Below, in pieces: positions 1,344-41,105 of a DNA stretch of 64,000 nucleotides (positions within the stretch are counted from its first letter, which is position 1; each line of letters opens with the position of its first letter). The notes beneath the pieces were generated by a model that searched no databases, was not told the origin of the DNA, and saw only the letters and a list, made by a program, of their open reading frames with translations. The DNA is from Liolophura sinensis. Taxonomy: Eukaryota; Mollusca; Polyplacophora; Chitonida; Chitonidae. The DNA lies in contig NC_088295.1 in NCBI RefSeq assembly GCF_032854445.1, positions 91,631,805 through 91,695,804 on the forward strand, read 5' to 3'. The position numbers and the translations under genes were made by a program.

Positions 1344-1517
1344 TTGTAAATGGCTGTCCACCTGTCTGCCAGTTATGTGATAACATGGCCGAGGTCAGTA
1401 AGCGGTTTGGAGGAGGAGATATTGCCGGGGCCGTACTGGGAGGAGCGTGCGGAGGAGCTCTGATGGCTCTTCTCTTCACCTTCATCATACTCCACTGTAC
1501 CGGTTACACACTCACAG
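1344..1517 (+). CDS. Gene A exon: Cys-rich juxtamembrane segment and transmembrane helix
   Basis: The acceptor is CTTGCAG ending at 1343; the donor CAG/gtgagt at 1518 is a perfect consensus match. Both ends are phase 1. The exon encodes a C-x3-C-x2-C stretch, a Gly-rich entry (GGGDIAGAVLGGACGG) and a hydrophobic run (ALMALLFTFIILHC) long enough to cross a membrane once. The exon ends in codons for TGYTLT. A downstream 25-bp satellite repeats this exon end together with its donor. An earlier acceptor (GCCAG at 1373) would also keep the frame, so the exact start is less certain than the end. Confidence 0.75.
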
Positions 1518-4500
1518 GTGAGTATTGGCTACACACTCAGTACTGGTTACACACTCACAGATGAGTACTGGTTACACAGTTACAGGCCAGAAGTGGATAC
1601 ACACTTACAGGTCAGCATTGGCTACACACTCACAAAGTAGTACCGGTTACACATTCACAGGTCATCATTGGTTACACATTCACAAAGTAGTTCTGGTTAC
1701 ACATTCACAGGTCAGCATTGGTGACACACTCACAAAGTAGTACTGGTTACACATCCACAGGTCATCATTGGTTACACATTCACAAAGTAGTTCTGGTTAC
1801 ACATTCACAGGTCATCACTGGTGACACACTCACAAAGTAGTACTGGTTACACATTCACAGGTCATCATTGGTTACACATTCACAAAGTAGTTCTGGTTAC
1901 ACATTCACAGGTCATCACTGGTGACACTCACAAAGTAGTACTGGTTACACATTCACAGATCAGCATTGGTTACACACTAATAGATCAGGTTTGCAAATGA
2001 ACATGTCAAGACATTAAGTGTCAACCGCCTGTTATCGTATCTGCATAAGGCGCTTTTTTAATCTGAATTTGTAGGAAAACCTCGTGCAAATTGTTGTCAG
2101 TTCATATTACCTGTAACACTGTTTAAAAGGTTGCGTCTTTTCATTTTATAGGTTCAAAGGAGAACCGTGTGACAGAAGCAAGAAGGTAGGTTTGGACTGA
2201 TTTGCCTAATTCTATGTGGTTATTCCCAGAAGGCAATTTTGATGGTAATAAGAGAAAAGCCCTATCGTCTGCATTAACTTGGCTGTTTCCTTCGCAATAA
2301 ATAAACCATGAATAAGCTTACTGATGTAAAACCGCAGGCGTGATTGCACTGGTTTGTGTTGTTCTATCTCGCTAACATAAAAATACTAATGTAAAAAGAT
2401 ATCGTGGATGGCTTTAAAGTATGGTTTCCTTTCAATAAAAGGTCCACTCTGACTGTAACAGAAACTGTCAATGTTATTTTAAACCTTGGGGGCCTTAATT
2501 CTCGACCAGTGAAGTCTAACATATTTGCAATCCACATCACGGCATATATGTTTCACCTAATTCCGCGCATGTCACAGTGTTAGGTCGGCGTGTAATTTGC
2601 TACTATTTAAACATTTACATGAAAAGTTAGAGTTACCTGAGGTAAATTGGCAACATACCGTATTTAAATGATTACGTTGACCAAATGCGAACTTTTATAC
2701 TGTTGTCGCTGCTCTCGTTTTACTCTCTGACTGTACGTCTATCACACTGTAGTCGCTGCTCTGGTTGTAGTTTCTGTCCTGTACTCTATCACACTGACGC
2801 CGTGGCTCTGGTTTTACTCTCCATGCTGTATGTTTATCACCCTGTCGTCGCTGCTCTGGGTTTACCCTCTGTGCTGTATACATCTACCACACTGTCGTCG
2901 CTGCTTTCGTTTTACTCTCTGTGTTGTACGCCTATCACACTGTCGTTGCTGCTCTGGTTTTACCCTCTGTGCTGTACTCATTCACACTGTCGTGGCCGCT
3001 CTAGCTTTGCTCTCTGTGCTGTACTCTATCACACTGTCGTCGCTGCTCTGATTTTACTCTCTGCGTTGTATATCTATCACACTGTCGACCCTCCTCGTGT
3101 TTTACTCTCTGTGCTGTACCTCCACCACACTATCGTGGCTGCTCTGGTTTTACTCTCTGTACTGTACATTATTACACTATCGTGGTTGCTCTGGTTTTAC
3201 TCTCTGTGCTGTACTCTATCACACCGCCGCTGCTCTGATTTTACTTGCTGTAATCTATGTCTATCACACTGTCCTGGCTGCTCTAGTTTTACTCTCCGTG
3301 CTGTACGTCTACCACACTGTCGTAGCTGCTCCAGTTTTACTCTCTGTGCTGGACTCTACCACACTGTCATGGCTGCTCAGGTTTTACTCTCCGTGCTGTA
3401 CGTCTATCACACCGTTGCTGCTCGTGTTTTACTTGCTGTACTCTATGTCTTTCACACTGTCGTCGCTGCTCAGGGTTTACCCTCTGTGCTGTACGTCTAC
3501 CACAATGTCGTAGCTGCTCTAGTTTTACTCCCTGTGCTGCACTCTACCACACTGTCATGGCTGCTCAGGTTTTACTCTCCTTGCTGTACGTCTATCATAC
3601 TACCATCTCTTCTCCGGTTTTACTCTCTGTGCTGTATGTCTATCACACTGTCGTCCCTGTACTGGTTTTACTCTCTGTGGTGTACGTCTGTCACACTGTA
3701 GTCGCTGCTCTGGGTTTACTCTCTCTGCTGTACTTTACCACACTCTCGTCCCTGCTCTGGTTTTATTCCCTGTGCTGTACATCTATCACAGTCGTCGCTG
3801 CTCTGGGTTTGCTCTTTGTGCTGTACTCTATCACACTGTCGTGGCTGCTCTGGTTTTACTCTCTGTGCTGTACTCTATTACACTGTCGTGGCCGCTCTAA
3901 TTTTACTCTTTGTGCTGCAGTCTACCACACTGTCGTGACTGCTCTGGTTTTACTCTCCGTGCTGGACATCTATCACACTGTCGTCGCTGCTCTGGTTTTA
4001 CGCTCTGTACTATACATCTATCACACTGTCGTCCCTGCTCGTGTTTTACTCTATGTGCTGTACGTCTACCACACTGTCGTCGCTGCTCTGGTTTTACTCT
4101 CTGTGCTGTACGTCTATCACACCATCGCCGCTGCTCTGGTTTTACCCTCCGTGCTGTAGGTCTATCACACCGTCACCGCTGCTCTCGTTTTCTCTCTGTA
4201 GTGCAGTTAATTATATTACATAGGATACTGGATGAATACTAATTCAGTGTGGGCTTAACATTCAGTTGTTGAGGTCAAATGATGTAAAATGTGACAGGAT
4301 GGGGTGTCATGTCTGGTGTCTTCGGCATGATGCTTCAGTTGTTTTTAAACGTTTAAATTCAAAAATCGCCGCACAAGAAAAAAACCAAGCATTTAACGTA
4401 TGTTATCCAGTCACCACCACAGAAAAGTGTAACGTGTTAGTGCGTAATCAATGCTGACTTGTTCTGTACTGGCTTGTTCTGTGCCCACTTGGGGAGTCGG

Positions 4501-7500
4501 TCGGCGTCGAGTGGTTGAGGTGCTGGACTTTCAACCAAGTCGGACCCACAATGTGTGGGTTAAAACACGCGCGTAAACAGGGAATTTACAGTTTCTGAGG
4601 CCATTGTGACAGTAAGAAGTTGACGACGCTCATGTGACCGTTTTCACAGTCTGTCAGTCCATGTTATCTTCCATCGATTTTGGGGCCTTTGTGACAGTAA
4701 GCAGTTGTCGACGATCTTGTGGCCGTTTTCACAGTCTGTCAGTCCATGTTATCTTCCATCGTTTTTCTGGCCATTGTGACAGTAAGCAGTTGACGACGAT
4801 CATGTGGCTGTTTTCACAGTCTGTCAGTCTATGTTATTTTCCATCGTTTCAGAGGCCATTGTGACAGTAAGCAGTTGACGACGATCATGTGGCTGTTTTC
4901 ACAGTCTGTCAGTCTATGTTATTTTCCATCGTTTCAGAGGCCATTGTGACAGTAAGCAGTTGACGACGATCATATGGCCGTTTTCACAGTTTGTCAGTCC
5001 TTGTTATTTTCCATCGTTTCTGAGGCCATTGTGACAGTAAGCAGCTGACGACGTTCATGTGACCGTTTTCACAGTCTGTCAGTCCATGTTATTTTCCACT
5101 GTTTCTGAAGCCATTGTGACAGTAAGCAGTTGACGATGATCATGTGACCGTTTTTACAGTCTGTCAGTCCATGTTACCTTCCATCGTTTCTGAGGTCATT
5201 GTGACAGTAAGCAGTTGACGACGATCATGTGACCGTTTTCACAGTCTGTCAGTCCATGTTATCTTCCATCGTTTCAGAGGCCATTGTGACAGTAAGCAGT
5301 TGACGACGATCATGTGACCGTTTTCACAGTCTGTCAGTCCATGTTATCTTCCATCGTTTCTGAGGCCATTGTGACAGTAAGCAGCTGACGACGTTCATGT
5401 GACCGTTTTCACAGTCTGTCAGTCCATGTTATTTTCCACTGTTTCTGAAGCCATTGTGACAGTAAGCAGTTGACGATGATCATGTGACCGTTTTTACAGT
5501 CTGTCAGTCCATGTTATCTTCCATTGTTTCTGAGGTCATTGTGACAGTAAGCAGTTGACGACGATCATGTGACCGTTTTCACAGTCTGTCAGTCCATGTT
5601 ATCTTCCATCGTTTCTGAGGCCATTGTGACAGTAAGCAGTTGACGATGATCATGTGACCGTTTTCACAGTCTGTCAGTCCATGTTATCTTCCATCGTTTC
5701 TGAGGCCATTGTGACAGTAAGCAGATGACGATGATCATGTGACCGTTTTCACAGTCTGTCAGTCCATGTTATCTTCCACCGTTTCTGAGGCCATTGTGAC
5801 AGTAAGCAGATGACGATGATCATGTGACCGTTTTCACAGTCTGTCAGTCCATGTTATCTTCCACCGTTTCTGAGGCCATTGTGACAGTAAGCAGATGACG
5901 ACGATCATGTGGCCGTTTTCACAGTCTGTCACTCCATGTTATTTTCCATCGTTTCTGAGGCCATTGTGACAGTAAGCAGCTGAGGACGTTCATGTTGCCG
6001 TTTTGACAGTTTGTCAGTCTGTGTTATTTTCCATCGTTTCTGAGGCCATTGTGACAGTAAGCAGCTGACAACGCTCATGTTACCGTTTTGACGGTCTGCC
6101 AGTCCATGTTATCTACCATCGTTTCTGAGGCCATTGTGACAGTAAGCAGTTGACGACGATCATATGGCCGTTTTCACAGTCTGTCAGTCCATGTTATTTT
6201 CCATCGTTTCTGAGGCCATTGTGACAGTAAGCAGTTGACGACTATCATATGGCCGTTTTCACAGTCTGTCAGTCCATGGTATCTTCCACAGACCATGCAT
6301 ACCTGAACGTCGGACGATGGAAAGTCTATCAATAACTTGCCAAAGGTCTGTAATTTACCTCGAGCACTCCGGTTTTCCCAACCCATTATGCTTTAAAATA
6401 TATGTAAAACAATTGAGAATTGCGTTAAACCAAAAAAAATAAATGGATAAATGGACAAAGCTTGACAAAACGCTTTCCTTTTCTAGACACAGGGTAGCTT
6501 GTGAAACAGAAAGGAGTTAAAGTCAAAGTTGAAGAAGTGTTCCCACACTAAGAACTCCGTTGTCATCAAAATATTTTGTCACCATTTCTGAAATTATCTC
6601 AGTGTAGACACATTTTTTTAATACGGACAGCTATTCACTTAAGCCACTGAACCAATGGCATGGGTCACTAGCACAGATAACTGTGTACCACTGCATATGT
6701 ACTGTACACCCTTGGTAGCCTGGAGTGCAGTGACCTTGGCAAGCCGTTTTGGCTTGTTCTTCATGAAAACACAGATGATCTTCTCCATGTCAGTCTCTTC
6801 CACTTTCGCTCCATGACAAATATCAGAAATATAAAACCTTTTTTCATTTTGTTCATACAAGGTGACCACATTACTCATTGTGACTTACTTGATGGAGGTA
6901 TTTATTTATTTATTTAATTGGTGTTTTGCTCCGTTTTCAAGAATATTTTCCATTATGGTAAGTGGAAACCGGGCAGAGCCCGAGGGAAATCTGCGACCGC
7001 ATTGGTGAGAGACTCCTGGGTCATTACGCTACGCTAGCGCGCTAACCAGCTGAGCCACGGAAGCCCCACTTGATGGAGGTAAGAAGTGATGCTGATAATA
7101 ATCATGTTTATGTGATGTTACTCTTCAGGTATGTCCAGCAGAGCCACCCGCCAAGACAACACCACTCAGATCCAACAGGTGAGTTGGAAAACATGTCTAG
7201 AAACTATCGCTTATGGGACCGTCTGCCACTCTGTCTTTATCATCTGATCTTACATAACTAAGGCATGTGATTTCGTCGCCGCTCTGGGTTTCTTCCCGTC
7301 CATATCTTTTATTATATAAATATAATTTATTATCGGCCTATAGGATCATTGAAATTTACATTACACACAAATTTGCAATGTATCACCATTTGATCCAGCG
7401 ACTTTTTCTGACGATTCGGAGCTGACTCTTTTGCAGTGACTCAAGAACCAGAAAGAGACGCAACCATCAATGAAGATCCTAGCTGCGCAATGGCAGAAGG

Positions 7501-10500
7501 TATATTCAGCAAAATCTCACATACTGACAGCAAAAGTAACTCCTGAGGCCCGTTCTACAAGGCGTGGGTTACTGTGCGACAGTCGCAACTGTTATGGCAA
7601 CGTATCACATTAGTATGTGTTACGATGACAATTACGCTTGCGCAAATTGTCGCAGGCTTTGTGGAACAAGCTCCTGATGTTACACGGCGCTATTGTTTTC
7701 GTCCTCCACTAGATACAGATAAAACCTTAAATTGAACAGTGCGAGATCCGTTTAAAATTAATTACACTCCCTCCCCATCTTATTTTGTTTATAAAAAAAA
7801 TGAAGATTGCGCAGTGGACTTATCAGATCAACCCTTTTAAAGTCTGTGAAACGTAAAAGTAGTATTATCCTTATATTGCCTATTGTTTGTCGGTTTCTGT
7901 TTCTTTGTAGTGTCACCAGACTACTATAATGTTCAACAAGATTCCACAGGTAGGTGTTACATGGAGCACACATGTATCGTTCACTTGTTTGAAGTTCCAT
8001 CGGAACAGTAAAACACGATCCATAGAAACATAACTGGTAGGTGATCTCAGGTCAGTTCACTTGTTTGAAGTTTCATCGGAACACTACCACATGATCCATG
8101 GAAACATGGCTGGTATGTGATACCAGGTCAGTTCACTGGTTTGCTGGTTGAGGTTTCATCGGAATAGTACAACACGATCCATAGAAACATAACTGGTAGG
8201 TGATCTCCGGTCAGTTCACTTATTTGAGGTTTCATCGGAGCAGTACCACATGGTAACATGGCTGGTATGTGATACCAGGTCAGTTCACTGGTTTGAGGTT
8301 CCATCGGAATAGTAGAACACGGTCTATAAAACATAACTGGTAGGTGATCTTAGGTCAGTTCACTTGTTTGAAGTTTCATCGGAACACTACCACATGATCC
8401 ATGGAAACATGGCTGGTATGTGATACCAGGTCAGTTCACTGGTTTGTTGGTTGAGGTTTCATCGGAATATTACAACACAATCCATGGAAAGATGGATTTT
8501 AGGTGAACCCAGGTCAGTTCACTGGTTTTTGTACAATAATGAAGTCGACACCAGTCATGTAGATCAATTCTTTGGTTTGCTGTTTCATGGGACTGTAAGT
8601 TCCAGTCTGCCAACTAATCCCGTTTAACTGCAGCTATCACATATTCTCAAGCGATCGGAACACATTTTTCTCTGAGTTCACCGCAGCCGTCCGTCATCAT
8701 AACACGTGAACTTACAGACTTCGCATTGTCAAGACCGCCATCGTATAAGTGAAATATTGTTGAGTACGGCATAAAACACCATTTAAATGAATAAACATTG
8801 TCAAGAGACCTGAACAAATTTGCTCCATACCTTGAAAAGCAGTCTGATCGCATCAGTCTAAAGTCCAACGCTCTGGAGTTCAACTCAGCCGCCAACTATG
8901 CCTAATAATTTTTCTCTAAGATCTACTTCTTCCACTACTTGATATTGCCACACTTGGTGGTTAAAGATTTTGCAGTGATAATGCAGATCTCTGGTATATT
9001 TATCATTCTTTTCATGTTTTCAGTCAATGCCCCATACCAGATGATAGATCATGCAGCTCAGTCCGGTAGGTGATCGTTATTGTCAGTATTGTGTTGTATT
9101 GTATTGTATTGTATTGTCAGTTGTCAGTATGTATAACATCAAGTTATTTTATGATGGATTCATTACACACAGCTTTAAGGATATGTTAAATGTCTGTAGT
9201 GGTAACATGCGATTTAACACGTCACAGTGACACACTTTACATGTAGTGATCAGTATCTGATAAAACACGTCACAATGACACACTGTACAGGTAATGATCA
9301 GTATCTTAAAAAACACGTCACAATGACACACTGTACAGGTAATGACCAGTATCTGATATGACACATCACAATGACACACTGTACAGGTAATGATCAGTAT
9401 CTGATATGACACGTCATCATGAAACACTATACAGGTAGTGATCAGTATCTGATATAACACGTCACAATGACACACTGTACAGGTAATAACCAGTATCTGA
9501 TATAACAGGTCACAGGGACATGCACAGGTAATGAAAAGTATCTGATATAACAAGTCACAGTTACAAGCAGTACAGGTAATGACTAGTATCCAATATAACA
9601 CGTCACAATGATAGACTGTAGAGGTAATAATCAATATCTCATTAACTCGTCACAGTGACTTACTGTACAGCTAATGACCAGTATCTGATATAACACGTCA
9701 CGGTTACATGCAGTACAGGTAATGACTAGCATCCAATATTACACGTCACAATGACACGCTGTACAGATAATGACAGTATCTGATACAACACGTCACAATG
9801 ACACAGTGTACAGGTAATAATCAGTATCTCATATAACACGTCACAATGACTTACTGTACAGCTAATGACCAGTACCTCATATAACTCATCACAGTGACAC
9901 ACTGCACAGGTAATGACCAGTATCTCATATAGTATGCCACAATGACACACTGTACAGGTAATGACCAGTATCTGATATAATACGTCACAGTGACGAACTG
10001 AAAAGGTAATAATGAATATTTGATGACACGTCACAATGACACACTATACAAATAATGATTATTATGTGATGTGACGCGTCACATTGACGCACTGTACAGG
10101 TAATGACTAGTATCTGATATAATAGGTCACACTGACGAACTGAAAAGGTATTGATGAATACCTGATGACGCGTCACATTGACACACTGTACAGGTAATGA
10201 CTAGTATCTGATATACAGCGTCACAGTGACACACTGTACAGGTATTGATCAGTATCTGATATAACACGTCACAATGACGCACTGTACAGGTAATGACTAG
10301 TATCTGATATAATAGGTCACAGTGACGAACTGAAAAGTTATTGATGAATACCTGATATGGCAGGCCACAATGTCACACTGTGCAGGTAATGACCAGTATG
10401 TGATATATACGCCACAGTGACGAACTGAAAAAGGTAATAATGAACATCTGATATGACACATCACAATAACACACTACACAGGTAATGACCAGTATGTGAT

Positions 10501-12169
10501 ATAACACATCACAATGGCACACTGTACAGGTAATGACCAGTACGTGATATAACACATCACAATGACACACTGTACAGGTAATTATCAGTACGTGATATAA
10601 CACTTCACAATGACACACTGTACAGGTAATGACCAGTACGTGATATAACACATCACAATGACACACTGTACAGGTAATGACCAGTACGTGATATAACACT
10701 TCACAATGACACACTGTACAGGTAATGACCAGTACGTGATATAACACTTCACAATGGCACACAGTACAGGTAATAACCAGTACGTGATATAACACTTCAC
10801 AATGACACACTGTACAGGCAATGACCAGTACGTGATATAACACATCACAATGACACACTGTACAGGTAATGACCAGTACGTGATATAACACTTCACAATG
10901 ACACACTGTACAGGTAATGACCAGTACGTGATATAACACTTCACAATGACACACTGTACAGGTAATGACCAGTACGTGATATAACACATCACAATGACAC
11001 ACTGTACAGGTAATGACCAGTAGGCCTACGTGATATAACACATCACAATGACACACTGTACAGGTAATGACCAGTACGTGATATAACACTTCACAATGAC
11101 ACACTGAACAGGTAATGACCAGTACGTGATATAACACATCACAATGACACACTGAACAGGTAATGACCAGTACGTGATATAACACATCACAATGACACAC
11201 TGAACAGGTAATGATTGTTATGTAATATAATACCTCACAGTGACACGATGTACAGGTAATGACCAGTACGTCATATAACACTTCACAATAACACACTGTA
11301 CAGGTAATGACCAGTACGTCATATAACACTTTTCACAATGGCACACTGTACAGGTAATGACCAGTACGTCATATAACACTTCACAATAACACACTGTACA
11401 AGTAATGATTGTTATGTTATATAATACCTCACAGTGACACAATGTACAGGTAATGACCAGTACCTGATATTACACGACACAGTGACATACCATACAGTTA
11501 TTGATTGTCACAATGACACACTGTATTGATAACGTAAAAGGCATTATCAATCGTCCACTAAGTTGACTATCGCTACCATGTCGACACACACCAGAGACTT
11601 TGTTTAAATGCTAGTTACAATCAACTGAGTCTACAATAGCTAAGAAATTCAGTATCTTGTACCGGTTCAACACGTCACTATGACATAATAGGTACTGGAC
11701 TAAAATAGGAACCAATAGGCGTAGAAAGCCTTGTAGTCACGTGACCCTTGGACTATAAAACACTAAACTAAAGCTCGTTATATAGTGTCTACGTTGTTCT
11801 ATGGTCTGTGTACAGACAGTTGTTTGCTGTGTATTGTGTATTGCATTGTCTTTCTGTGTCTTTGCAGCGCCAGCGCTGTATGAAAGGATGAACCCCACAA
11901 ATAACAATGGTAAAACTAACACTTATTCTTAAAGTACAGTTTGCAGAAGTGAGAAGTATAAAACAAAAAACTCTACTTTTTCCAGTAACCTAAATGCGCG
12001 ATAAAAATTAATCCGGTGGCCCGTATAGCATGTAAATAGATTAACAGCCAATACTGTATGTAGAAGATTTTTTTCTTCAGCGGATCATGGAGATTTAGAA
12101 AAATAAGTTTCACTCCTGAGTTGTTCTTGTCTATCTGCAGATGGTGCCTATGTTCAGCCTCGGATGTGA
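1344..12169 (+). CDS. Gene A: receptor-like single-pass membrane protein, 3' part (8 exons)
   Basis: Exons are 1344-1517, 2152-2185, 7129-7178, 7437-7499, 7911-7949, 9024-9065, 11868-11909 and 12141-12169. All junctions are AG/GT, and the 473 coding bases join in one frame to TGA at 12167-12169 (156 residues in the window; the 5' part lies outside). Numbering from the first full codon: Cys 4, 8 and 11 precede a hydrophobic helix at about 26-51; then comes a polar tail with Tyr at 54, 70, 111, 112, 124, 138 and 151. Tail motifs visible are YVQQ, DYYNV, YQMI, YERM and YVQP, which fit general SH2-docking or endocytic patterns (YxN, YxxQ, YxxM, YxxI). Six of the seven introns are phase 1; only that between exons 2 and 3 is phase 2. 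The inferred role is a signalling or adhesion receptor at the plasma membrane; ligand and ectodomain are unknown. The frame agreement makes a real gene very likely; the family is not identified. Confidence 0.8.
1518..1985 (+). repeat. 25-bp satellite derived from the exon end and splice donor
   Basis: Units such as CTGGTTACACATTCACAG followed by GTCATC or AAAGTAG repeat about 18 times. The first unit is the actual coding end of the transmembrane exon plus its donor. The array therefore seems to have grown out of the exon/intron boundary, leaving many donor-like CACAG/gtca sites. Confidence 0.85.
2152..2185 (+). CDS. Gene A mini-exon, tail start (34 nt)
   Basis: Acceptor TTTTATAG, donor AAG/gtaggt. 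It encodes GSKENRVTEAR using the split codon from the transmembrane exon. Its basic and charged content right after the helix fits the cytoplasmic face (positive-inside rule). It ends in phase 2, the only non-phase-1 junction in the gene. Confidence 0.65.
2186..2689 (+). other. Intron sequence, nothing recognised
   Basis: Unique AT-rich intron between gene A exons 2 and 3. No repeat, ORF or conserved element is visible. Confidence 0.6.
2690..4205. repeat. 48-bp minisatellite, about 31 copies
   Basis: The unit is close to CTGCTCTGGTTTTACTCTCT followed by GTGCTGTACGTCTATCACAC and TGTCGTCG. Because 48 is divisible by 3, stop-free frames of up to 338 codons arise on the + strand; these are artefacts of the period. 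Pyrimidine-rich on the + strand within an intron of gene A. Confidence 0.95.
4488..4580 (+). mobile_element. tRNA-like SINE head fragment
   Basis: GTCGAGTGGTTGAGGTGCTG resembles the A box and D arm of a Leu/Ser-type tRNA. It is followed by an anticodon-arm-like segment (CTTTCAACCAAG) and GTGGGTTAAAACACGC in the place of a B box. It is too degraded to be a functional tRNA gene, so a decayed tRNA-derived SINE is the better reading. Confidence 0.35.
4590..6295. repeat. 85-bp minisatellite, about 20 copies
   Basis: The unit begins GAGGCCATTGTGACAGTAAG and continues with a CAGTTGACGACGATCATGTG segment; starts at 4597 and 4682 give the 85-bp period. Variants GATGAT/GACGAT and GACC/GGCC define subfamilies, and neighbouring pairs are shared, suggesting spread by unequal exchange. 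It lies in the long intron between gene A exons 2 and 3. Confidence 0.95.
6639..6878 (-). CDS. Small hypothetical ORF inside gene A intron
   Basis: Encodes 79 residues starting MSNVVTLYEQNEKRFYISD, with a mixed, protein-like composition (KVEETDMEKIICVFMKNKPK in the middle). It is in non-repetitive DNA, antisense to gene A and next to a SINE. No family is recognised and no promoter or splice context supports it. It may be a fragment of an old insertion or chance. Confidence 0.15.
   Translation of the reverse strand: MSNVVTLYEQNEKRFYISDICHGAKVEETDMEKIICVFMKNKPKRLAKVTALQATKGVQYICSGTQLSVLVTHAIGSVA
6897..7066 (-). mobile_element. SINE family 1, internally deleted copy
   Basis: On the minus strand the copy starts with a tRNA-like head (GGCTTCCGTGGCTCAGCTGG, then TTAGCGCGCTAGCGTAGCGT) and ends in the family tail with GAGCAAAACACCAATTAAAT and an ATAAATA run. 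The central domain is shortened to about 40 bases around the GGGCTCTGCCCGGTTTCC block. Homologous to the full copy at 46749-47029. Confidence 0.85.
7129..7178 (+). CDS. Gene A mini-exon with YVQQ motif (50 nt)
   Basis: Acceptor CTCTTCAG, donor CAACAG/gtgagt. It encodes R (split codon) then YVQQSHPPRQHHSDPT. The Tyr lies at residue 70 of the visible part. YxxQ matches the pattern bound by some STAT SH2 domains; that is a pattern match only. Confidence 0.7.
7437..7499 (+). CDS. Gene A exon, acidic linker (63 nt)
   Basis: Acceptor CTTTTGCAG, donor GAAG/gtatat. Phase 1 at both ends; encodes V then TQEPERDATINEDPSCAMAE. Acidic and without Tyr, so it acts as a spacer between the first and the later tyrosine motifs. 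Confidence 0.7.
7541..7680. mobile_element. Fold-back MITE-like element
   Basis: The two halves are imperfect inverted copies: CCCGTTCTACAAGGC on the left pairs with GCTTTGTGGAACAAG on the right, and inner GCGACAGTCGCAAC pairs with the region around GCGCAAATTGTCGC. CTCCTGA stands at both ends. No coding capacity. It lies in the intron between gene A exons 4 and 5. Confidence 0.6.
7911..7949 (+). CDS. Gene A mini-exon with DYYNV motif (39 nt)
   Basis: Acceptor TTTCTTTGTAG, donor CACAG/gtaggt. Phase 1 at both ends; encodes V then SPDYYNVQQDST. The first Tyr gives YxN (a Grb2-type SH2 pattern) and the second gives YxxQ. Similar in length and layout to the next two exons, which suggests tandem exon duplication. 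Confidence 0.75.
8000..8530. repeat. About 75-bp repeat in a roughly 150-bp higher-order array
   Basis: GGTCAGTTCACTTGTTTGAA alternates with GGTCAGTTCACTGGTTTG, and ACATAACTGGTAGGTGATCT recurs near 8030, 8189 and 8330. It lies in the intron just after the DYYNV exon. Confidence 0.8.
8740..8797 (+). mobile_element. SINE family 1, 3' end fragment
   Basis: CCGCCATCGTATAAGTGAAA followed by TATTGTTGAGTACGGCATAA and AACACC matches the 3' domain of the family-1 SINEs. The tRNA head and central domain are absent. Confidence 0.75.
9024..9065 (+). CDS. Gene A mini-exon with YQMI motif (42 nt)
   Basis: Acceptor TGTTTTCAG, donor CCG/gtaggt. Phase 1 at both ends; encodes V then NAPYQMIDHAAQS. YQMI fits YxxI and the general YxxPhi endocytic signal; an ITIM would need I/V/L/S two residues before the Tyr, and here it is Ala. 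Confidence 0.75.
9180..11530. repeat. About 48-bp minisatellite, roughly 48 copies
   Basis: The core is CACAATGACACACTGTACAG followed by GTAATGACCAGTACGTGATA and TAACACAT. The left third (9.2-10.4 kb) is diverged, the right part (10.5-11.2 kb) nearly homogeneous. The period gives open frames of up to 318 codons on the minus strand, which are artefacts. Nearly every unit contains TACAG/gtaatg, a good match to a 5' splice site on the sense strand of gene A. Confidence 0.95.
11868..11909 (+). CDS. Gene A mini-exon with YERM motif (42 nt)
   Basis: Acceptor CTTTGCAG, donor AATG/gtaaaa. Phase 1 at both ends; encodes A then PALYERMNPTNNN. YERM matches YxxM, the pattern of PI3-kinase p85 SH2 docking sites. 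Same length and Tyr position as the YQMI exon, so the two look like duplicates. Confidence 0.75.
12141..12169 (+). CDS. Gene A terminal coding exon with YVQP motif
   Basis: Acceptor CTATCTGCAG. Encodes D then GAYVQPRM and stops at TGA 12167-12169. It repeats the alanine-tyrosine layout of the previous exons in a shorter form. The 3' UTR follows directly. Confidence 0.75.
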
Positions 12170-12380
12170 CCAGAGTAGCAACAGACGTCATCTCTATGAC
12201 GTGTCCAGGATCAACGTCACTGTGGACGCTTTATGGGATATTAACAATATATAAATGTAGATGTAAATAAGATGATATATCCTGCAAAATATAGTTGCTA
12301 TATAAAGTGAAGGAATATCTTTTTTGTATTTGCTTTTCCTCTTGTTAATTTTTAATAAATGAGATTAGGTAATAATTTTT
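12170..12380 (+). terminator. Gene A 3' UTR with poly(A) signal
   Basis: AT-rich sequence after the stop with AATAAA at 12354-12359 and a T-rich stretch after it. This places the transcript end at about 12.37-12.39 kb. Confidence 0.5.
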
Positions 12381-16908: not shown

Positions 16909-17220
16909 TTAATGCCAATGGGTAACTGTCTTTTCTAGTGAGTTCAATTTTCTATAGTCAATAAAGAAACGCGTTGAACCATCCTTCTTAGGAACCCAGG
17001 TGACGGGGGACGCCCATGGTGATGTCCATGGTCTAATTACTCCAGCCTCTAAAATCTCTCGGACCTGTTTTTTGACCACATGTTTCGTTAGGGACAGCCG
17101 GTACGCACGTAGTCTGATGGGCGGGTGATCACCGGTTGGAATGGTGCATATGACGTTAGGATGTTTTCCTCCATTTCGACGTTTGCTGCTGTCGAAAACG
17201 TTCTGGTGCAGGTCCAACAC
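16909..17220 (-). pseudogene. Gypsy-type reverse transcriptase fragment
   Basis: About 100 residues. Conserved pieces are RLRAYRLSLTKHVVKKQVRE, EAGVIRPWTSPWASPVTWVP and FFIDYRKLN. The frame ends with KTVTHWH and a stop where the domain should continue, so the palm with the catalytic aspartates is lost. Confidence 0.8.
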
Positions 17221-17362
17221 CCTATCAATGCACGGGTAGCCAGTGGTTTCCTTTACTGTTGATACCGGTCACGTGATGAGGGGGTTACAAGCTGGTACGT
17301 TCGGTTTAGGCCACATTATTTTCCCATGAGGGTAGTCAAGTTTTAGTCTACCAAAGTGTAGA

Positions 17363-19863: not shown

Positions 19864-20085
19864 CTTTTACACACGTAGAGCCTAAAGGACCCAGACATGT
19901 AACGTATGATCCTCCGGACACGAGGGCCTGCGCGGTTTACGGACGCTTCACTCTGACATATTATCCTCAGAACACGGAGAGTCAGCTGAGAATCACCTGT
20001 GAGGTCAGCTACCAGGGCTCATACGATATGGTCATTGAAGAAATCTCCATCTGTGTTGAACTTTCTGTTGCTTTTGTGTCTGTTG
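19864..20085 (+). pseudogene. Gene B Ig-like exon, copy 1, 3' half
   Basis: The open frame codes VEPKGPRHVTYDPPDTRACA, then VYGRFTLTYYPQNTESQLR and ITCEVSYQGSYDMVIEEISI. ITCEV carries the F-strand Cys of an Ig-like domain. It aligns to the 3' part of copy 2 with a 22-base internal deletion. The donor expected after GTTGAA is lost, but GTTG/gtaaga at 20086 would give the same phase 1. An in-frame TGA at 19836 separates it from the acceptor at 19823, so an intact exon is unlikely. Confidence 0.55.
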
Positions 20086-21711: not shown

Positions 21712-22023
21712 TTTGGGCCTCAACCATACTCCAGCAAGACAGGAGAACCTTTAGTGCTGACCTGTGCTGGACAGCTGGCTGCTGGCCACCTTGGGGTCTC
21801 AGAACACAAGCAGAGCCTGAACGACCCAGACAGGTCGATCGTCACCGTGAACACCATGAACATGGAGTACGATCCTCCGTGTGCAAATGTCTGCACGGTT
21901 TACGGAATCTCGACTCGGACACATTACCCTCAGAACATGGACCGTGGGCTGAGAATCACCTGTGAGGTTAATATCAGGGCTCAGACGATATGGTCACTAA
22001 GGACATCTCCATCTGTATTGAAG
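21712..22023 (+). pseudogene. Gene B Ig-like exon, copy 2, with a one-base frameshift
   Basis: The acceptor is probably ATGACTCAG (21711) and the donor GAAG/gtaaaa (22024). The frame reads GEPLVLTCAGQLAAGHLG (B strand with Cys), a middle part with SIVTVNTMNMEYDPPCANVC, and GLRITCEV (F strand with Cys). The Cys spacing fits an Ig-like fold, with an extra Cys pair in PCANVC. After CEV copy 1 has GTCAGCTACCAGGGC whereas this copy has GTTAATATCAGGGC; the missing base shifts the frame away from the expected YQGSDDMVTKDISICIE. The shifted frame would restore the same exon end as copy 1. It is a pseudogene, or a sequencing/assembly error in a live exon. Confidence 0.6.
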
Positions 22024-23130: not shown

Positions 23131-23163
23131 ATGTGCCCGACAAACAAAGTACTCCTGAACCAG
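23131..23163 (+). CDS. Gene B stalk mini-exon 1 (33 nt)
   Basis: Acceptor TTTTTCTTCAAG, donor CCAG/gtgaac. In phase 1 it encodes DVPDKQSTPEP. It is one of four 33-nt exons with the same flanks; phase 1 is the only frame open in all four. Pro/Thr/Ser-rich short units such as this are typical of extracellular stalks; that function is inferred. Confidence 0.55.
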
Positions 23164-23823
23164 GTGAACATTACAGTACATGTGTACTTGTGAATAGATT
23201 CCTTTCTCATCATTGTCTCTTCAATTGCTAATTTACCCCAGATAGACATGAACAGTAGAAAAGAAATCGTCCACGCTTCCTTTTATTTTTGTAAACATAC
23301 CGTACGGGGGAAATAATCATGTTCACGTGACCACGACATCCTGAGACAGTAAATAGTGGCCAACCGAAGCAGTAGCAAAACCTCAAATATAATCGTTTTA
23401 TGTAAAATCAGCGAAATAAAATTAGATAATGCCGTTTACTTCCTTAATACGTCTGGCAAACTTCTTTTCCTGCCACTGTATTACTCTTGGACGTGTGATA
23501 TGTATGCATGTATCGTGTCACTACACATTTTGACTTGGCGCTTCTTTAGTTGTGTTGGGGATTCGGTTATCAAGATAGATTAAATGTGATTTCGCGCCTT
23601 GTTTGATTCAGGAGATATACACATTTTGTACAGCAAACAATAGGTCAACTGATAAATGAACACTGGCTTTATTGTTGAAGTTAAACGTAAATAGCTTCAA
23701 AGAAACAGTTTTTGGTCAGTAGCACATGGACACATGGTTTTTGGTCAATACCACAAAATATTTCTTCGGTGTAGTGTAAGTACAAGAAAAGACACAAATT
23801 TTGTCTGTTTTGTTTCCTTCAAG
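23164..23823 (+). other. Intron between stalk exons 1 and 2
   Basis: AT-rich and homologous in part to the introns after stalk exons 2-4 (shared GTGGATTCCTTTC-like block just after each donor, conserved TTTGTTTCCTTCAAG at the end). No other feature. Confidence 0.5.
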
Positions 23824-23856
23824 ATCTGACAAGTGGACAAATCACTCGTGGATCAG
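23824..23856 (+). CDS. Gene B stalk mini-exon 2 (33 nt)
   Basis: Acceptor TTTGTTTCCTTCAAG, donor TCAG/gtgact. Encodes DLTSGQITRGS in phase 1. This is the most diverged of the four copies, but exon length and splice sites are kept. Confidence 0.5.
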
Positions 23857-24411
23857 GTGACTACAGGCATGTCTGTAATGGTGGGCGGATTTCTTTCGTT
23901 TTGGCTGTTGCCCTCAAAGTAGTTAGTTCATCTGCACCAATGTTTCAATGCACACTTTAGACACAATCCTTCATTAATGTTTCTCTAAGTTTTCTCGTTC
24001 TTTTATGGATATACGTTACACACCATTCCCAAACAGTTTGATTCTACAAGAAATCTTTACTTCGCTCACATCACATTAATTAAAAATGAATACATCATTA
24101 TATTTCCTCTTCTCGGAAATACGACATTAAACCGAAAGTAGAAATGCAGGAACTGATATTGTTGTTTTGGGCAATTTGCTTCTTTGAAGGTGTACAAATT
24201 CCTAAACTTATTCATGAATTGAAAGAAAGATAACCGTCAACATGAGAGAATAAATACATGGGTTTTTGTGAGTAGATTATTTCATTCGTCCATTTTGCTG
24301 CACTCCGATTGTAAGTGTCGATATATAAGCTTACAACACATCAGAAGTCTTTATGGTAATCCATAGTAGTTCAAAAAAGACCTAATTTTTGACCTTTTTG
24401 TTTCCTTCAAG
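23857..24411 (+). other. Intron between stalk exons 2 and 3
   Basis: AT-rich. Its part at 24130-24340 is homologous to 27440-27650, marking a further decayed copy of the duplicated unit there. Confidence 0.5.
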
Positions 24412-24444
24412 ATGTGACCGACAGACAAACCACTCCTGGGCCTA
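24412..24444 (+). CDS. Gene B stalk mini-exon 3 (33 nt)
   Basis: Acceptor TTTGTTTCCTTCAAG, donor CCTA/gtgagt. Encodes DVTDRQTTPGP in phase 1. The last exon base is A instead of G, which weakens the donor slightly, but gtgagt is intact. Confidence 0.55.
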
Positions 24445-24939
24445 GTGAGTATAATTGAATGTGTAGTTCTGAGTGGATTGTCTCCCCAATAGTTAGTTTA
24501 CCTACAGTTCAGGTAAAATAAAAAAAGTCTCTTCATTGTGAAGGTGAAAATACCTTCAATGGGTGACACAACAAATAATGCCCAGACGAAGGTCTAGCAA
24601 AACCTGGGATATTGTATCTTGGAAACGCTTTATAGAAAGTCACTGTGAAAACTTACCGATGTCATTAGACTTCGTCGGCCAGATGCGTTTTATTTCATCA
24701 TACGTGATGTAGTCTTCCTGAGGATAATCTGATATAACTTTATCCTTTCATTGCATATTTTTAACTGCATTACCTGAAAGAAGATCCTCCAGTCTTAACA
24801 CCGATTCAATTATAAATGCACAAGCAGTAAATAATGTCAGGAATAACAACATACCAGAAAACCAAATGTGTCCAAGTTGATAAACAGAATTAAAAGCTGA
24901 AGTCTTCAAAGAAACAAAAGAATGTGGTCAGTTTCGCCT

Positions 24940-25525
24940 ATAGCGAAGTGCAGCTCACTACAGATACACGTCTGAGGTGCGCGAAGTGCAGCTCACTACA
25001 GATACACGTCTGAGGTGCGCAAAGTGCACAGATACACGTCTGAGGTGCGCGAAGTGCAGCTCACTACAGATACACGTCTGAGGTGCGCAAAGTGCACAGA
25101 TACACGTCTGAGGTGCGCGAAGTGCAGCTCACTACAGATACACGTCTGAGGTGCGCGAAGTGCAGCTCACTACAGATACACGTCTGAGGTGCGCGAAGTG
25201 CAGCTCACTACAGATACACGTCTGAGGTGCGCGAAGTGCAGCTCACTACAGATACACGTCTGAGGTGCGCGAAGTGCAGCTCACTACAGATACACGTCTG
25301 AGGTGCGCGAAGTGCAGCTCACTACAGATACACGTCTGAGGTGCGCAAAGTGCACAGATACACGTCTGAGGTGCGCGAAGTGCAGCTCACTAGAGATACA
25401 CGTCTGAGGTGCGCGAAGTGCAGCTCACTACAGATACACGTCTGAGGTGCGCGAAGTGCAGCTCACTACAGATACACGTCTGAGGTGCGCAGAGTGCACA
25501 GATACACGTCTGAGGTGTACTAGAA
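24940..25525. repeat. 38-bp minisatellite with a shorter 30-bp variant
   Basis: Unit GCGAAGTGCAGCTCACTACA followed by GATACACGTCTGAGGTGC, about 15 copies. Some units lack 8 bases of the CAGCTCACTA part. Individual copies are almost identical, so the array is young or homogenised. It lies in the intron before stalk exon 4. Confidence 0.95.
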
Positions 25526-25557
25526 ACACATTATTTTGTCTGTTTTGTACCTTCAAG

Positions 25558-25590
25558 GTGTGTCCGACAGACAACCAACTCCGGAACCAG
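25558..25590 (+). CDS. Gene B stalk mini-exon 4 (33 nt)
   Basis: Acceptor TTTGTACCTTCAAG, donor CCAG/gtgagt (perfect consensus). Encodes GVSDRQPTPEP in phase 1. It is the last intact copy; a retrotransposon fragment begins within about 60-100 bases of its donor. Confidence 0.55.
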
Positions 25591-25649
25591 GTGAGTATAA
25601 ATACATCTGTGGTTGGGTAGATACCTTTCTTAAACCCTCATATTATGAT

Positions 25650-26752
25650 CAGTTATATAGTAAAGACAGCAAGAAAGCCTTGCCATTTAATTTACGGTCG
25701 AACGAAATTTCTGACTTCTTTCAGGCCAGGGATATTTCTATTCAGCCTGGTTGTGTTCCACATTTTCCTCCCTGGAAGTTATCGAACCCATTTGTCTCTG
25801 TGGAACTACATTCTAAAGTCAAAAAGACGGATAACGGTAATGTATCGTTGTTATGTGTCAAGGACCATATTAAATCAAACTGGAACTTGTACTTACAAGT
25901 ATTTACCGACGCTTCCAAATGCCCCGACACTAAAAAAGTGGGCGCATCAGTGTGTATTCCAGAAATGAGGTATGAAAAATTTTCCGCTTGTCAGGTTATG
26001 TTTCCGTGTTCACGGCAGAGCTTACCGCAATCTTGAGTGCTCTTAACTATCTACTCGAGTTAAGACCGATTAGGGCTGTTATTTTCACAGACTCCTTAAG
26101 TTCTTTACAGGCACTTGGTAACTTTATTTGGAATAAGTCGGCAGTGCTTGTGTATGAAATACTGTATATCTGTATTATATTGGGCTATCAAGGTGTATCT
26201 GTGGCGTTTGAATGGGTGCCGGTCCACATTGGTGTTGACGGAAATGAGTTGGCCGACAAACTGGCCAAAAAGGCCCTTGATCTACCCAATATATCCCACA
26301 CCATCCCGTTGTCTGTACAAGAAGCTATTAGTTATGTCAAACCGAAATTTATACCAGTATGACAAAATGAATGGGATAACTCTGTTACAGGAAGATTCTT
26401 TTACTCTCACAACCCTCAAATCTCTGTAAGCTACAATCTCTCTCTCAACTGTCACTGTGACGAAATACTCGTATTTGGACTCTTGTCTGGTCACATTAAA
26501 ACAAACAGCTATTTACATAAAATCAATCTCCATGACACGGGTCATTGTGAGGAATGCTTTGTAGAAGATACTGTTGCGCATGTTCTTTTTCGTTGTAGAC
26601 GTCATATTGACGCCAGGCGCGTATTTTACGCAGAATTAACTCGTGTGGGTGTTAGGAACCCGTCAGAAGACACGGTTTTAAAACCGGTGAGAAATCACAA
26701 CAAAGTTTTTCAGGCTGTTGCCATTTTTCTCACTCGCTGCTACAGATTCTAA
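25650..26752 (+). mobile_element. Non-LTR retrotransposon 3' fragment with RNase H domain
   Basis: Two frames cover the C-terminal part of an ORF2. The first has FPPWKLSNPFVSVELHSKVK and the RNase H start VFTDASKCPDTKKVGAS. After a frameshift near 25975-25995 the second gives SVFTAELTAILSALNYLLE, FTDSLSSLQAL and VDGNELADKLAKKA. The four acidic RNase H positions (D, E, D, D) are all present. A third segment to the TAA at 26750-26752 has GHCEECFVEDTVAHVLFRC, the Cys/His cluster usual at the end of such proteins. Endonuclease and RT are absent. The frameshift and a stop near 26360 make it inactive. RNase H points to an I, R1 or related clade. Confidence 0.8.
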
Positions 26753-28270: not shown

Positions 28271-29018
28271 TTACACTTTTTCCAAGAACTTGTGAGCTGA
28301 TGGTGACCGAGTTGTATTCAAAGCTTCGCAGAAGGCCACTATCTGTTTCTCAAGACTTCGAACGGTATTCCCTCCGCCGATGGCGTGGTGGATTGAGACT
28401 ACATGTACATCGACATTTTATGAAAGTGACCAGTGAGTCACACATATACACAAGATGAAACAGTACAGGCGTTTTCATATCCGATAATGCCGATAATCTA
28501 CCCCTTTGTGTGGTCGGTTCCGCTGTACATTGTGTTCTGTACATGTACTGTCTTTATGTGTATTTATGGCAATCTCGATCTGTGAAATGACGAATACTTC
28601 AAATCGAAAAGGTAAAGTTAACAGTTATTATTAGAGCACACGACATGCACTGAAAAAACAGAAGCATAAAGTAAAACAGGCTTGGTCGACACCAACTGGC
28701 GGATGGTCATGGATTTCCCAAGGTCTCAGTCCGGTTGCCTCCCATCACAATGCCTTCTTATAAATGAAATAGACCTATTCTTGAGTACTGCGTAAAACTC
28801 ATTCAAATAAATATAAGGTAAAACAAAATGTACTTTTTGAATAGAGTCGATGATCTCTGAGCAGAAGTAAGAGTAAACACTGTCGGCGAATCCCTGGATG
28901 AGTATGAGCCTAGCAAATTGGTCGCTTTTTGTGCCAGAGTATCAGTTAATACTGTCGGTGTATCCGTGGATGAGTACATTGTTTCACTTATCAGTTAGTC
29001 CACCAATCCACCAAGAAC
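28271..29018. other. Unique DNA, nothing recognised
   Basis: Only short frames. GTATCAGTTAATACTGTCGG and GAGTAAACACTGTCGGCGAA mark a small diverged duplication near 28870-28980. Confidence 0.45.
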
Positions 29019-32015: not shown

Positions 32016-35000
32016 TCAGACAGAAGTGACAGTATCATCGACTCGCGTGGCTGGAGCTACCTCTATGGTATCAGCGTCAGTAAACACGTCATTATCACGG
32101 TCAGGTCTGCTTTGGTTTCTCTTAATGCAGGGTAGGTGAAGGAAACAGTGCAGCAAGGCTCCTATCAGAATGATGCCTCCGCCCACGTAGAACGCGCCGT
32201 CGTAGCTTCCCGTCATGTCATATATAGCTCCTGTCAACAAAGTCACAGAAGTTTGTTAGAACAAACATTCAGAAACCTCATTACATGTACATAACAATGA
32301 CAAAAACGAAGTGAGTATCTTGACACAATCCAATCCGGTTTAACAGCTTATTGTGTACGAAACTTTAGAATACATAGCGTCCAACACAACCAGGGGATAA
32401 AGTAGAGGAACATTCCTTAGTTTTAATCAGTCGATAGAGAAAACAGCAATCTCATGGAATCAGTTCCAGCTTAAAATGCAAAATGCTTCATCCCAATATG
32501 AAACCGTGGAATTTGAAAATCATATGTGAAACTTGTCATTTCCAGTAAGTTGACCTAGAAACCTTTCTAGTCATTTGTCATGAAGATCATTGTTTCATCG
32601 TAAGTGCCTCAGTTTTTAGACAACTACCTCACCCAAATAGGAACCCGCGTACAAAGCATGAAATCTTAGTCTCAAGCGGTTTGATATCTATTGTCATCAC
32701 GTGGAATATAGGGACAGGTGAACAAACGGACACACCGGTGGACAAACGTCGCAAGATCCCTTCGGTACAATATGCTCATGAATGAGAACCTAAGAAAGCC
32801 CTTTAACTGATATCTTGTGACAAATAACCTATAGCGTACGATCACTTGACATCTGTTATGAATCAGCCAAGATTCCATGTCACATTCTCGTGTCAATGTG
32901 AAAATGGTTCGAACATCACCTTACATAAATAAATGACGTATCTGTGAAAGGTGACCCCGCCCTCATCTAACGCTCCATTCCCACGCTCTCACCTAAGGCC
33001 CCATTCCCATGCCCTCACCTAGGGCCCCATTCCCACGCCTTAACCTAGGGCTCCATTCTCACGCCCTCACCATTTCCATGCCCTCACCTAAGGCCTCATT
33101 CCCATGGCCTCACCTAGGGCCTCATTCCCACGCCTTAACCTAGGGCTCCATTCTCACGCCCCCGCCTAAGGCCCCAATCCCACTTAGAAGAATTTTTTGC
33201 CGAACCGTTACGAATTGACGTTGTAACATAACGCATTGCATTCGTAGTCTTTGGTACTGATTCTTGAGCGTTCGTAATGTATTCGTCGGGAGCATTTCAA
33301 AAAGTTTAATAACTTTGCGACTTTACATCAGTTCATAATGATTCGTAAGTATTCGCAAAAGCTTCGTAAATATTCGCCAAGCTTTTGATTGCAATGGTAA
33401 ATGTAAAGTAATCATTCCAGAACTATCATTATGTCGTAGCATTTCTCAAAATCAGCCGATTAATGCGGATTAGATACAAAATACTTATGAATGAACACGA
33501 ATTTATGACAGATAGTGTCGTAAGGCATTCTTAATTATTCGTAAGCTTGTCACAAAGGGAGTGGGCAGATCGTTGTCATTCTTTTGAAGTTCTTAAAAAA
33601 TTCGAAGACCTCATCGATCGTCACAGTTTCGCACCTTGTGCGAGACTGCCGTCAACCTGTCGTGATATTCACGCCAATTAACCTCTTGCTACGAAATGCA
33701 ATACGAATCTTATGTCGCAACGGTTCGGCACAACATTGGGCTAGGTGGGCACATACATGAGACGTACCTGTAAGAGGTGGGCCCGCTATGGCAGATACTC
33801 CTCGAGCTAACGTCAGTAAACCAAACGCATTTGTTAATTTCTCCAAACCAAGTAAATCACACAAGATGATAGATGTAAGTGAGATGAAAGCCGCTGAAAA
33901 AATAGACGAGTGAAAAAGTAGGCATCGTTATAAGTTTCAACTCATAGCCATTAGGGCTGTCTTTCTTCGCACACTTCCTTCACAAAAGGCCTCGCCTGTA
34001 GGAGACACATAAATGCAAAATTTCAACTCAATGCATAAAATCCTGAAGTTGTAAATTTTGTAATTTACATTAAGTATTGATATACACACAGTGCGTCAAC
34101 CATGAAACATTCCCCTTGTGTAATTGTGTTGTACATGTACGTGTATGTAAAACCTCAGCTCAATACACGTAGTACTATTTTAGATACCACCCCTATCATT
34201 TACTTTCACATTGACTCTAATACACAATTCACTATGTCACAAATTTTGAAATCTAGGGGTAATAAAAATGCACACAGCGCATTGTGCTATACGTGTGTGC
34301 AGAAATCTGACCCCAATGCATATCGTACTATTTAAAATTCGACCCCTAACAGTTGCATAATGTACTTTATCATTGCTTTCCCTGTTAATGGCCGTTCTAA
34401 GAACATTTTTTTCTTAAAAGAAAAAACCTCTAAAAACCCAAGCAGTCATCACCAAATAGACCACTTAAAACTATGCATAAATGTACCTTAATTTATTTTT
34501 ATGTGATTTGTATCAAAAGGGTTAAAGACCCTCAAACATCTGAATTCTAGGGTGGGCTTTATGGACCATGCTATTCGAGGATAGGAATTCTGACGTCAAA
34601 GGAAGTTTATCCAACTCTAATCACGACACAGAATGTTGGAATAACTCATTTACCCATGAGTGAAAGATTACTGAAAGAATGTTCTCAAAAATTCCTTCCT
34701 GTCAGAGTTCCTAGATACTGTCAGCACGGCTCTTTAAACCCACCATAGTTTTCAAATACTTAAATGCTTCCTAACACTCTTTGAAAACTCAGAACAAAAA
34801 TCAACGGAAGTATTTTTACACCTAGTTCTTTCTACAAACATAACCATGACAATCTGTAACGTTAAGCCTGTGGCAGAAATCGTATTAATTAGCGTTTGGA
34901 ATGAATCCTGCAGGCTTTGATTGTTTTTCCCAAGTGACACGGTTTGCTCGCGTAAAACTTACCCATACAGAGACCAAATACAGATGAAAAAACGACCAAG

Positions 35001-40355: not shown

Positions 40356-41105
40356 TTCTGATAGGTTAGACAGGTCAGCTTGAGGAAATGTATTACACGC
40401 CTAGTTAGCCAATGTTTATCCAAACTTCATAGACGTTTGGAAATAGAAGACAACAGTGAATCCAACGTCATGCTAACTGTCCACCTGAAATCCAGCAGGT
40501 GGTTCTGGATCTGAAAACATAGATTAGACACCTTTGGTGATTAACACTACATGAGTAGGTTAATATCAAAAGTTAACTGCATGCTGTTACATTTTCAATG
40601 TTATTTCGTAAATCCTATGCTACAAGGCTGTGTTCATTACGATGTCCTGAAATCAGCATGCTCTGAGCAGCCAATAGTCTCAGGTTTACGGGCTACTTTC
40701 CTATCCCTAAGAGTGTTCCCTGTGCATTTTTCATATGATTTCTCGAAAATATAATCACTATCATTGCAATAAAAAGACTGCTGTGAGGGAAAGTGGGTCC
40801 TCCACAGATTATCAGTGAAGGCCACTCAAGCCTGCTCTATATCTGCAGACGAGATTACCACCTGTCCGCACCAGATAAAATCCAGGTCATTTTCACCTGA
40901 GTACACAATCAGGTATCCGATGTCTCCTGTCTCCTATATATGCATGGTCACCATTTTGCCTACGATAACTGGACCAAATTCTGCCCCATCCTACTCTTGC
41001 CATATATGAACTTGAAACGTTTGAAAGGTTTATTTTGTAGGTCATACTTTGCAGGTCACACTGATAATTCTCCAAAGCCGAAAGCAACGTTGTACCAACT
41101 GAGCT
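40356..41105. other. MCT upstream region
   Basis: A 5' UTR exon and promoter are expected in this direction but no TATA box or clear donor is identified. GGAACTTTCCTTTAGCTCAG followed by TTGGTACAACGTTG on the minus strand (41111-41075) is a tRNA-like SINE head fragment. Confidence 0.4.

Follow-up and report, generated by a model that had tools for sequence, protein, structure and literature searches.

Within a 64,000-nucleotide stretch of DNA from the chiton Liolophura sinensis (the window), we analysed eight short exons on the plus strand (1344-12169) that have the appearance of the 3' half of an immunoglobulin (Ig)-type cell-surface receptor gene. Taken as a whole, the locus is probably the 3' half of a gene for a single-pass receptor of the immunoglobulin superfamily, one member of a small chiton tandem array, with predicted SH2 docking sites carried on mini-exons. 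The assembly was published as Liolophura japonica (PMC11068029, available portion), and the species has since been corrected to L. sinensis (PMC12441733). Genome searches covered 609,464,459 bases in 632 contigs, and the 120 kb upstream of the window were also examined; the genomic coordinate on contig C1 equals the window coordinate plus 91631804. The exons found in the window, and the signal that follows them, are these:

1344..1517, plus strand: exon 1, the transmembrane (TM) exon, 174 nt, phase 1-1, encoding a membrane-proximal extracellular part and a transmembrane helix, VNGCPPVCQLCDN...ALMALLFTFIILHCTGYTLTG
2152..2185, plus strand: exon 2, 34 nt, phase 1-2, basic juxtamembrane region, GSKENRVTEARR; the copy in a twin gene is identical
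7129..7178, plus strand: exon 3, 50 nt, phase 2-1, with the RYVQQ tyrosine; present in the twin
7437..7499, plus strand: exon 4, 63 nt, phase 1-1, without tyrosine, VTQEPERDATINEDPSCAMAE; present in the twin
7911..7949, plus strand: exon 5, the DYYNV tyrosine mini-exon, 39 nt, phase 1-1
9024..9065, plus strand: exon 6, the YQMI tyrosine mini-exon, 42 nt, phase 1-1
11868..11909, plus strand: exon 7, the YERM tyrosine mini-exon, 42 nt, phase 1-1
12141..12169, plus strand: exon 8, the last coding exon, 29 nt, with YVQP and the TGA stop
12354..12359, plus strand: AATAAA polyadenylation signal, after the last coding exon

When joined, the eight exons leave one of the three frames open for 156 codons up to the TGA; AG precedes every exon, GT follows all but the last, and the border phases run 1-1, 1-2, 2-1, 1-1, 1-1, 1-1, 1-1 and 1-stop, the exon 2/3 junction being the sole one outside phase 1. 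An earlier note on this DNA had described eight exons of 29-174 bases in one frame over this interval, the last four bearing DYYNV, YQMI, YERM and YVQP and mostly phase-1 borders, and both descriptions held. Its "156-residue tail" was correct as a chain length and too long for the tail, which comes to about 105 residues, divided among seven exons, because the 156-residue chain also holds an extracellular piece and the membrane helix. The best 23-residue window for that helix (residues 26-48, scored on the 156-residue chain) has a mean hydropathy of 2.14, in line with a single membrane-spanning helix. There are seven tyrosines in the chain: Y54 adjoins the membrane (TGYTLTG), and Y70, Y111, Y112, Y124, Y138 and Y151 lie beyond it, those on the last four tail exons being spaced 12-14 residues apart. 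For the alternative splicing that the earlier note suggested, 31 of the 63 possible skip combinations of exons 2-7 would keep the frame.

The earlier note had also called the gene a receptor and looked to the left for its ectodomain. Both ideas were supported, a first exon apart, by three further exons placed in frame ahead of the TM helix and tail:

-19398..-19018 (window coordinates): first Ig-like exon, 381 nt, phase 1
-16253..-15843 (window coordinates): second Ig-like exon, 411 nt, phase 1; its 5' border is one choice among several
-7010..-6978 (window coordinates): stalk mini-exon, 33 nt, phase 1

The two Ig-like exons, the stalk exon and the TM exon read through in frame without a stop. 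The best Pfam match for both Ig-like exons is V-set, weakly (E 7e-4 and 0.014), and of their 34 matches to solved structures at E up to 1, the best only 0.069, most are antibody V domains; the cysteine pattern of the Ig fold was judged by eye.

The tail exons are tiny, their introns are rich in satellites and no transcript supports them, and they might therefore be splice-like strings that arose by chance in intron DNA full of repeats, or pieces of different genes. We consider this extremely improbable, since a single frame runs through all eight exons, the borders of the TM and YERM exons are kept in a diverged paralogue, and the number of tyrosine mini-exons was matched by none of 200 dinucleotide shuffles. 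In that control the plus strand from 7000 to 12200 was scanned for phase-1/phase-1 mini-exons of 30-66 nt containing Y..[VILMP] and reaching fixed splice-score cut-offs. The scan returned three (the DYYNV, YQMI and YERM exons) against a shuffle mean of 0.08, and no shuffle reached three; the donor cut-off of 3 was set in the knowledge that the YERM donor (gtaaaa) scores 3. Raising it to 4 left two mini-exons against 0.05 per shuffle (0/200), and a laxer acceptor gave six acceptors against 0.37 (0/200), namely those of the three exons, two inner acceptors of these and one at 9087.

The gene does not stand alone. Matches to the tail numbered ten in the genome, every one at C1 91.52-91.64 Mb, and the Ig exons had 14 matches, at 90.04, 90.18 and 91.49-91.65 Mb, of which two carry an in-frame TAG. 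The window gene (G4) and the twin (G2), which lies 73 kb upstream, belong to a tandem repeat of roughly 70 kb; its long matching pieces are about 88-99% identical among the matches listed, gaps counted, and the satellites lower. In the flanks of the tail exons G2 and G4 differ at 34 of 3974 aligned bases (0.9%), a count in which the overlapping flanks of exons 3+4, 4+5 and 7+8 enter twice. The exon 1 protein sequence is 98% identical to that of the twin and 71% to that of a paralogue, G3.

In its DNA, G3 matches the window gene over the TM exon (73% over 275 columns with flanks), over a homologous 42-nt YERM exon with its borders kept (72% over 92 columns with flanks) and in the 3' untranslated region, which is homologous to 12179-12296 (70% over 118, E 2e-12). 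The YERM-type exon of G3 reads VISACEMTYPTNRN, with the motif tyrosine replaced by cysteine and a tyrosine further on (MTYPTN). No match to exons 3-6, DYYNV and YQMI exons included, was found between the TM and YERM exons of G3; a 31-nt piece resembling exon 2 was seen by eye where blastn gave no match, and the last exon, matched only by eye and position, appears by eye to be without tyrosine. G3 may not make a tail of the window type, because, with the pieces identified, the reading frame would break between exon 2 and the YERM exon. At a further locus, G1, the TM exon has no read-through.

Whereas G4 carries the DYYNV and YQMI exons once, G2 carries them twice, with borders intact and in frame. 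The chain of the twin from the TM exon to the stop comprises ten exons and 183 residues (184 characters with the stop mark), 27 more than the 156 of the window gene, the surplus coming from two additional exons of 39 and 42 nt. Genome searches allowing up to three mismatches found the DYYNV exon three times, all identical (one in G4 and two in G2), and the YQMI exon likewise. The two copies of the exon pair within G2 (G2a and G2b) differ at 7 of 1065 positions, and each differs from the window copy at more (12/1069 and 15/1065); since the G2 copies are thus closer to each other than to G4, the comparison, on few sites, points to a doubling after the G2/G4 split. The earlier note had proposed that the tail grew by duplication of mini-exons. 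That proposal is supported as a recent event, in another form: what was doubled is the DYYNV+YQMI pair, and this in the twin, not in the window copy. As judged from the copies compared, the docking-site exons do vary in number between paralogues, because the pair is doubled in G2, was not found in G3, and the YERM tyrosine of G3 is a cysteine.

The satellites of these introns were also inspected. The 83-bp satellite on the 3' side of the DYYNV exon was considered as a set of decayed exon copies and rejected, as its matches to the exon fell within shuffles (112, 168 and 334 of 500), as did those to the exon plus upstream intron (126, 90 and 183 of 500). The one uncommon match, of 12 bp, was on the donor side (12, 12 and 20 of 500 shuffles). 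In the twin, 83-bp satellites follow both DYYNV exons (-66060..-64950 and -61620..-60730 in window coordinates), and five of their units would pass as 33-nt phase-1 tyrosine mini-exons, two of them with YYN; the same scan found none in the satellite of the window copy. A different satellite at the start of intron 1 (1497-1978) consists of copies resembling the end of the TM exon with its donor (39 bp, 90%, E 1e-9), and is therefore full of donor-like sites.

The TM exon does show constraint, judged from its substitutions relative to the paralogue: the ratio of nonsynonymous to synonymous change (dN/dS) is 0.38, with 12.5/38.5 synonymous and 16.5/114.5 nonsynonymous sites changed (Fisher test on rounded counts, p=0.03). 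Between G2 and G4 the first Ig exon shows 33 changes at a ratio of 0.99, the second 14 changes at 1.64, and the TM exon together with the tail 3 changes at 0.14. In the first Ig exon the variable columns are concentrated at 30-66 (18/37, vs 13/94 elsewhere), boundaries that were picked after viewing the data; four of five copies entered this count, L034 being left out because its match is in two pieces and the in-frame stop of L035 being treated as X.

Several results weigh against the receptor interpretation or parts of it. All the support comes from sequence. Upstream, we found no start codon and no convincing signal-peptide first exon: a scan of 20.6 kb at a donor score of at least 4 gave 18 candidates, 17 of them inside one satellite, and a scan of about 8 kb at a donor score of at least 3 gave one weak candidate, the same in both scans. 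Both Pfam matches of the Ig-like exons lie below the curated cut-offs. With p=0.14, the difference in dN/dS between ectodomain and tail falls short of significance and is suggestive only. The exons of the twin are not significantly more conserved than their flanks (3/473 vs 34/3974, p=0.79), a comparison that cannot settle conservation in a copy so young. Against G3 the YERM exon is less conserved than its flanks (24/42 vs 42/50), and therefore no purifying selection is shown there. The derivation of the different tyrosine exons of the tail from one another, which the earlier note implied, also found no support: none of the ten pairs among exons 4-8 clearly beat codon-shuffled controls, the lowest shuffle count being 136/2000 (YQMI/YERM, ungapped), and a founder exon is thus unsupported. 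Three of the tyrosine exons do have their tyrosine at codon 5, and the sole notable match in the flanks is a 38-column intron stretch just upstream of the DYYNV and YERM exons (79%, E 0.002), where acceptor tracts resemble each other anyway. As to docking, only Grb2-family adaptors bound the YXNM motif studied in PMC4263166 (available portion).

Some of this would suit a locus whose exons are correctly read and which is mostly decaying, made up of recent copies of a receptor that works elsewhere or has been lost, with the doubled pair as neutral debris. In its favour are the fact that no first exon was found, the decayed state of a fifth locus (G5), the absence of read-through in the G1 TM exon, the in-frame TAG in the Ig copies at 91.49 and 90.18 Mb and introns full of satellites; relaxed constraint would also account for the dN/dS of both Ig exons, which is close to 1 or higher. 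We nevertheless regard general decay as rather unlikely, because frame and splice sites are intact in the window gene all the way between the first Ig exon and the stop, the twin retains both Ig exons, the stalk exon and everything from the TM exon to the stop, the changes in the first Ig exon cluster in columns 30-66 and the TM exon has a dN/dS of 0.38.

Another reading would leave the window gene real and make the twin, or its doubled pair, an artefact of assembly in which two haplotypes were laid end to end. The available portion of PMC11068029 reports a heterozygosity of 1.24% and 14x HiFi reads with a mean of 8.3 kb; the divergence of 0.9% around the tail is close to that heterozygosity, and G2a and G2b differ by just seven positions. 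We judge this quite improbable, since identity drops to 88-93% (gaps counted, among the matches listed) over several long pieces of the ~70-kb repeat, the first Ig exons of the two genes are separated by 33 substitutions and two indels, well above heterozygosity, and a third, decayed unit is partly present further along. The 184 kb around the gene contain no N, whereas joins between scaffolds normally leave gaps. The assembly as a whole reports 1,110 gaps (PMC11068029, available portion).

If the locus does encode an Ig-superfamily receptor, its class suggests how it would work: a ligand bound by the Ig domains would cluster the receptors, a Src- or Syk-type kinase would phosphorylate the clustered tails, and each tyrosine mini-exon would supply one SH2 docking site. 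The immunoreceptor tyrosine-based activation motif (ITAM) has the pattern YxxL/I-x(6-12)-YxxL/I, and the corresponding inhibitory motif (ITIM) the pattern [ILVS]xYxx[ILV]. The 156-residue chain contains no strict ITAM and no ITIM; with V or M allowed in the former, YYNV-x9-YQMI and YQMI-x10-YERM match. By sequence, YYNV matches the Grb2 rule (YXN) and YERM the PI3-kinase p85 rule (YXXM), both rules as given in the available text of PMC4263166; for YQMI, YVQP and YVQQ, any partner named would be a guess. The doubled pair would double the DYYNV and YQMI sites in G2.

The phase-1 borders allow single exons or exon pairs to be gained by duplication or to drop out while the frame is kept, and paralogues could come to differ in docking-site number while the outer Ig domain diverges. 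We tentatively propose, as a possible if doubtful generalisation, that the tail is an expandable cassette array, in which tandem duplication within satellite-rich introns adds and removes whole phase-1 docking exons (and stalk exons outside the membrane), and sister receptors, perhaps even alleles, differ in the number and kind of SH2 sites while the binding domain diversifies. An extracellular stalk exon has also been amplified, to four copies in the decayed gene G5 (23.1-25.6 kb). Were these genes expressed, they would make up a natural series in which sister receptors carry the same docking-exon pair zero times, once and twice, and whose direct comparison could ask how immune-type receptors change signalling strength.

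The recognisable parts of G5 lie downstream in the window:

19893-20060 and 21712-21975, plus strand: decayed Ig-like half-exons (genomic 91651697-91651864 and 91653516-91653779), which share 55% and 50% identity with the second Ig exon and have no Pfam match
23131..25590, plus strand: stalk mini-exon in four 33-nt copies, from 23131, 23824, 24412 and 25558 (repeat family D2), the third also found by splice scan
28497..28679, plus strand: decayed YERM-exon region, acceptor site lost, 82.5% identical to G3

Elsewhere in the window, open frames on the minus strand at 34889-40400 resemble, by eye, a monocarboxylate-transporter-type gene of the major facilitator superfamily, and those at 25524-26752 and 16909-17268 (minus) resemble, by eye, retrotransposon remains (RNase H, reverse transcriptase). 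At a distance of 1.4 Mb, C1:90183504-90183956 holds a second Ig exon with 97% DNA identity to that of the window gene over 458 bp; in the 20 kb around it we found no similar TM or tail exon, the other matches to the 184-kb region being short and repeat-like.

The statement of the earlier note that no gene of this design had been described was too strong, as the CEACAM and PECAM-1 tails consist of short, alternatively spliced exons. Among the open-licence papers listed (8 of 9 matches for chitons) we found no paper on such receptors in chitons and no description of a difference in docking-exon-pair copy number between twin receptors. According to the available part of PMC2110893, dog CEACAM23-CEACAM30 and human CEACAM3 and CEACAM4 have Ig domains, a TM exon and very short cytoplasmic exons (Cyt1-Cyt4) with tyrosine motifs, and the CEACAM1-related genes show clustered, species-specific expansion, probable pseudogenes and splice variants that skip a tail exon. 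The window gene shares with them a tail split into short tyrosine-motif exons and a clustered array, a likeness of design that does not imply orthology. The CEACAM tails differ in being of ITAM/ITIM type, in the phase-0 split of the first YxxL and in the frame shift that follows skipping of the 53-nt Cyt1, whereas the chiton gene has no strict ITAM or ITIM, mostly phase-1 borders and a number of tyrosine exons that differs between twins.

PECAM-1 (CD31) has eight tail exons that are alternatively spliced, and SHP-2 binding is lost in variants that lack exon 14 (PMC5664058, available portion). It is an Ig receptor whose tail, like that of the probable window receptor, is cut into exons bearing tyrosine motifs, with docking sites changed exon by exon; it differs in its two ITIMs and six Ig domains, and duplication of an exon pair is not mentioned for it in that portion of the paper. 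Among molluscs, the oyster receptor CgIgIT2, which occurs in haemolymph and has been linked to ERK signalling, resembles the window gene, as we read it, in being an Ig receptor with a TM segment and a tyrosine-based tail motif (PMC11999971, available portion). It differs in having five Ig domains, and its motif is termed an ITAM in the available text of that review while the title cited there calls it an inhibitory receptor. Because the CEACAM genes, PECAM-1 and the oyster receptor are already known, the design of the chiton receptor, as we read it, is not new and is an instructive variant; if the gene is expressed, the mammalian pattern, in which the outside diverges and short tail exons are exchangeable, would have a likeness in a distant phylum.

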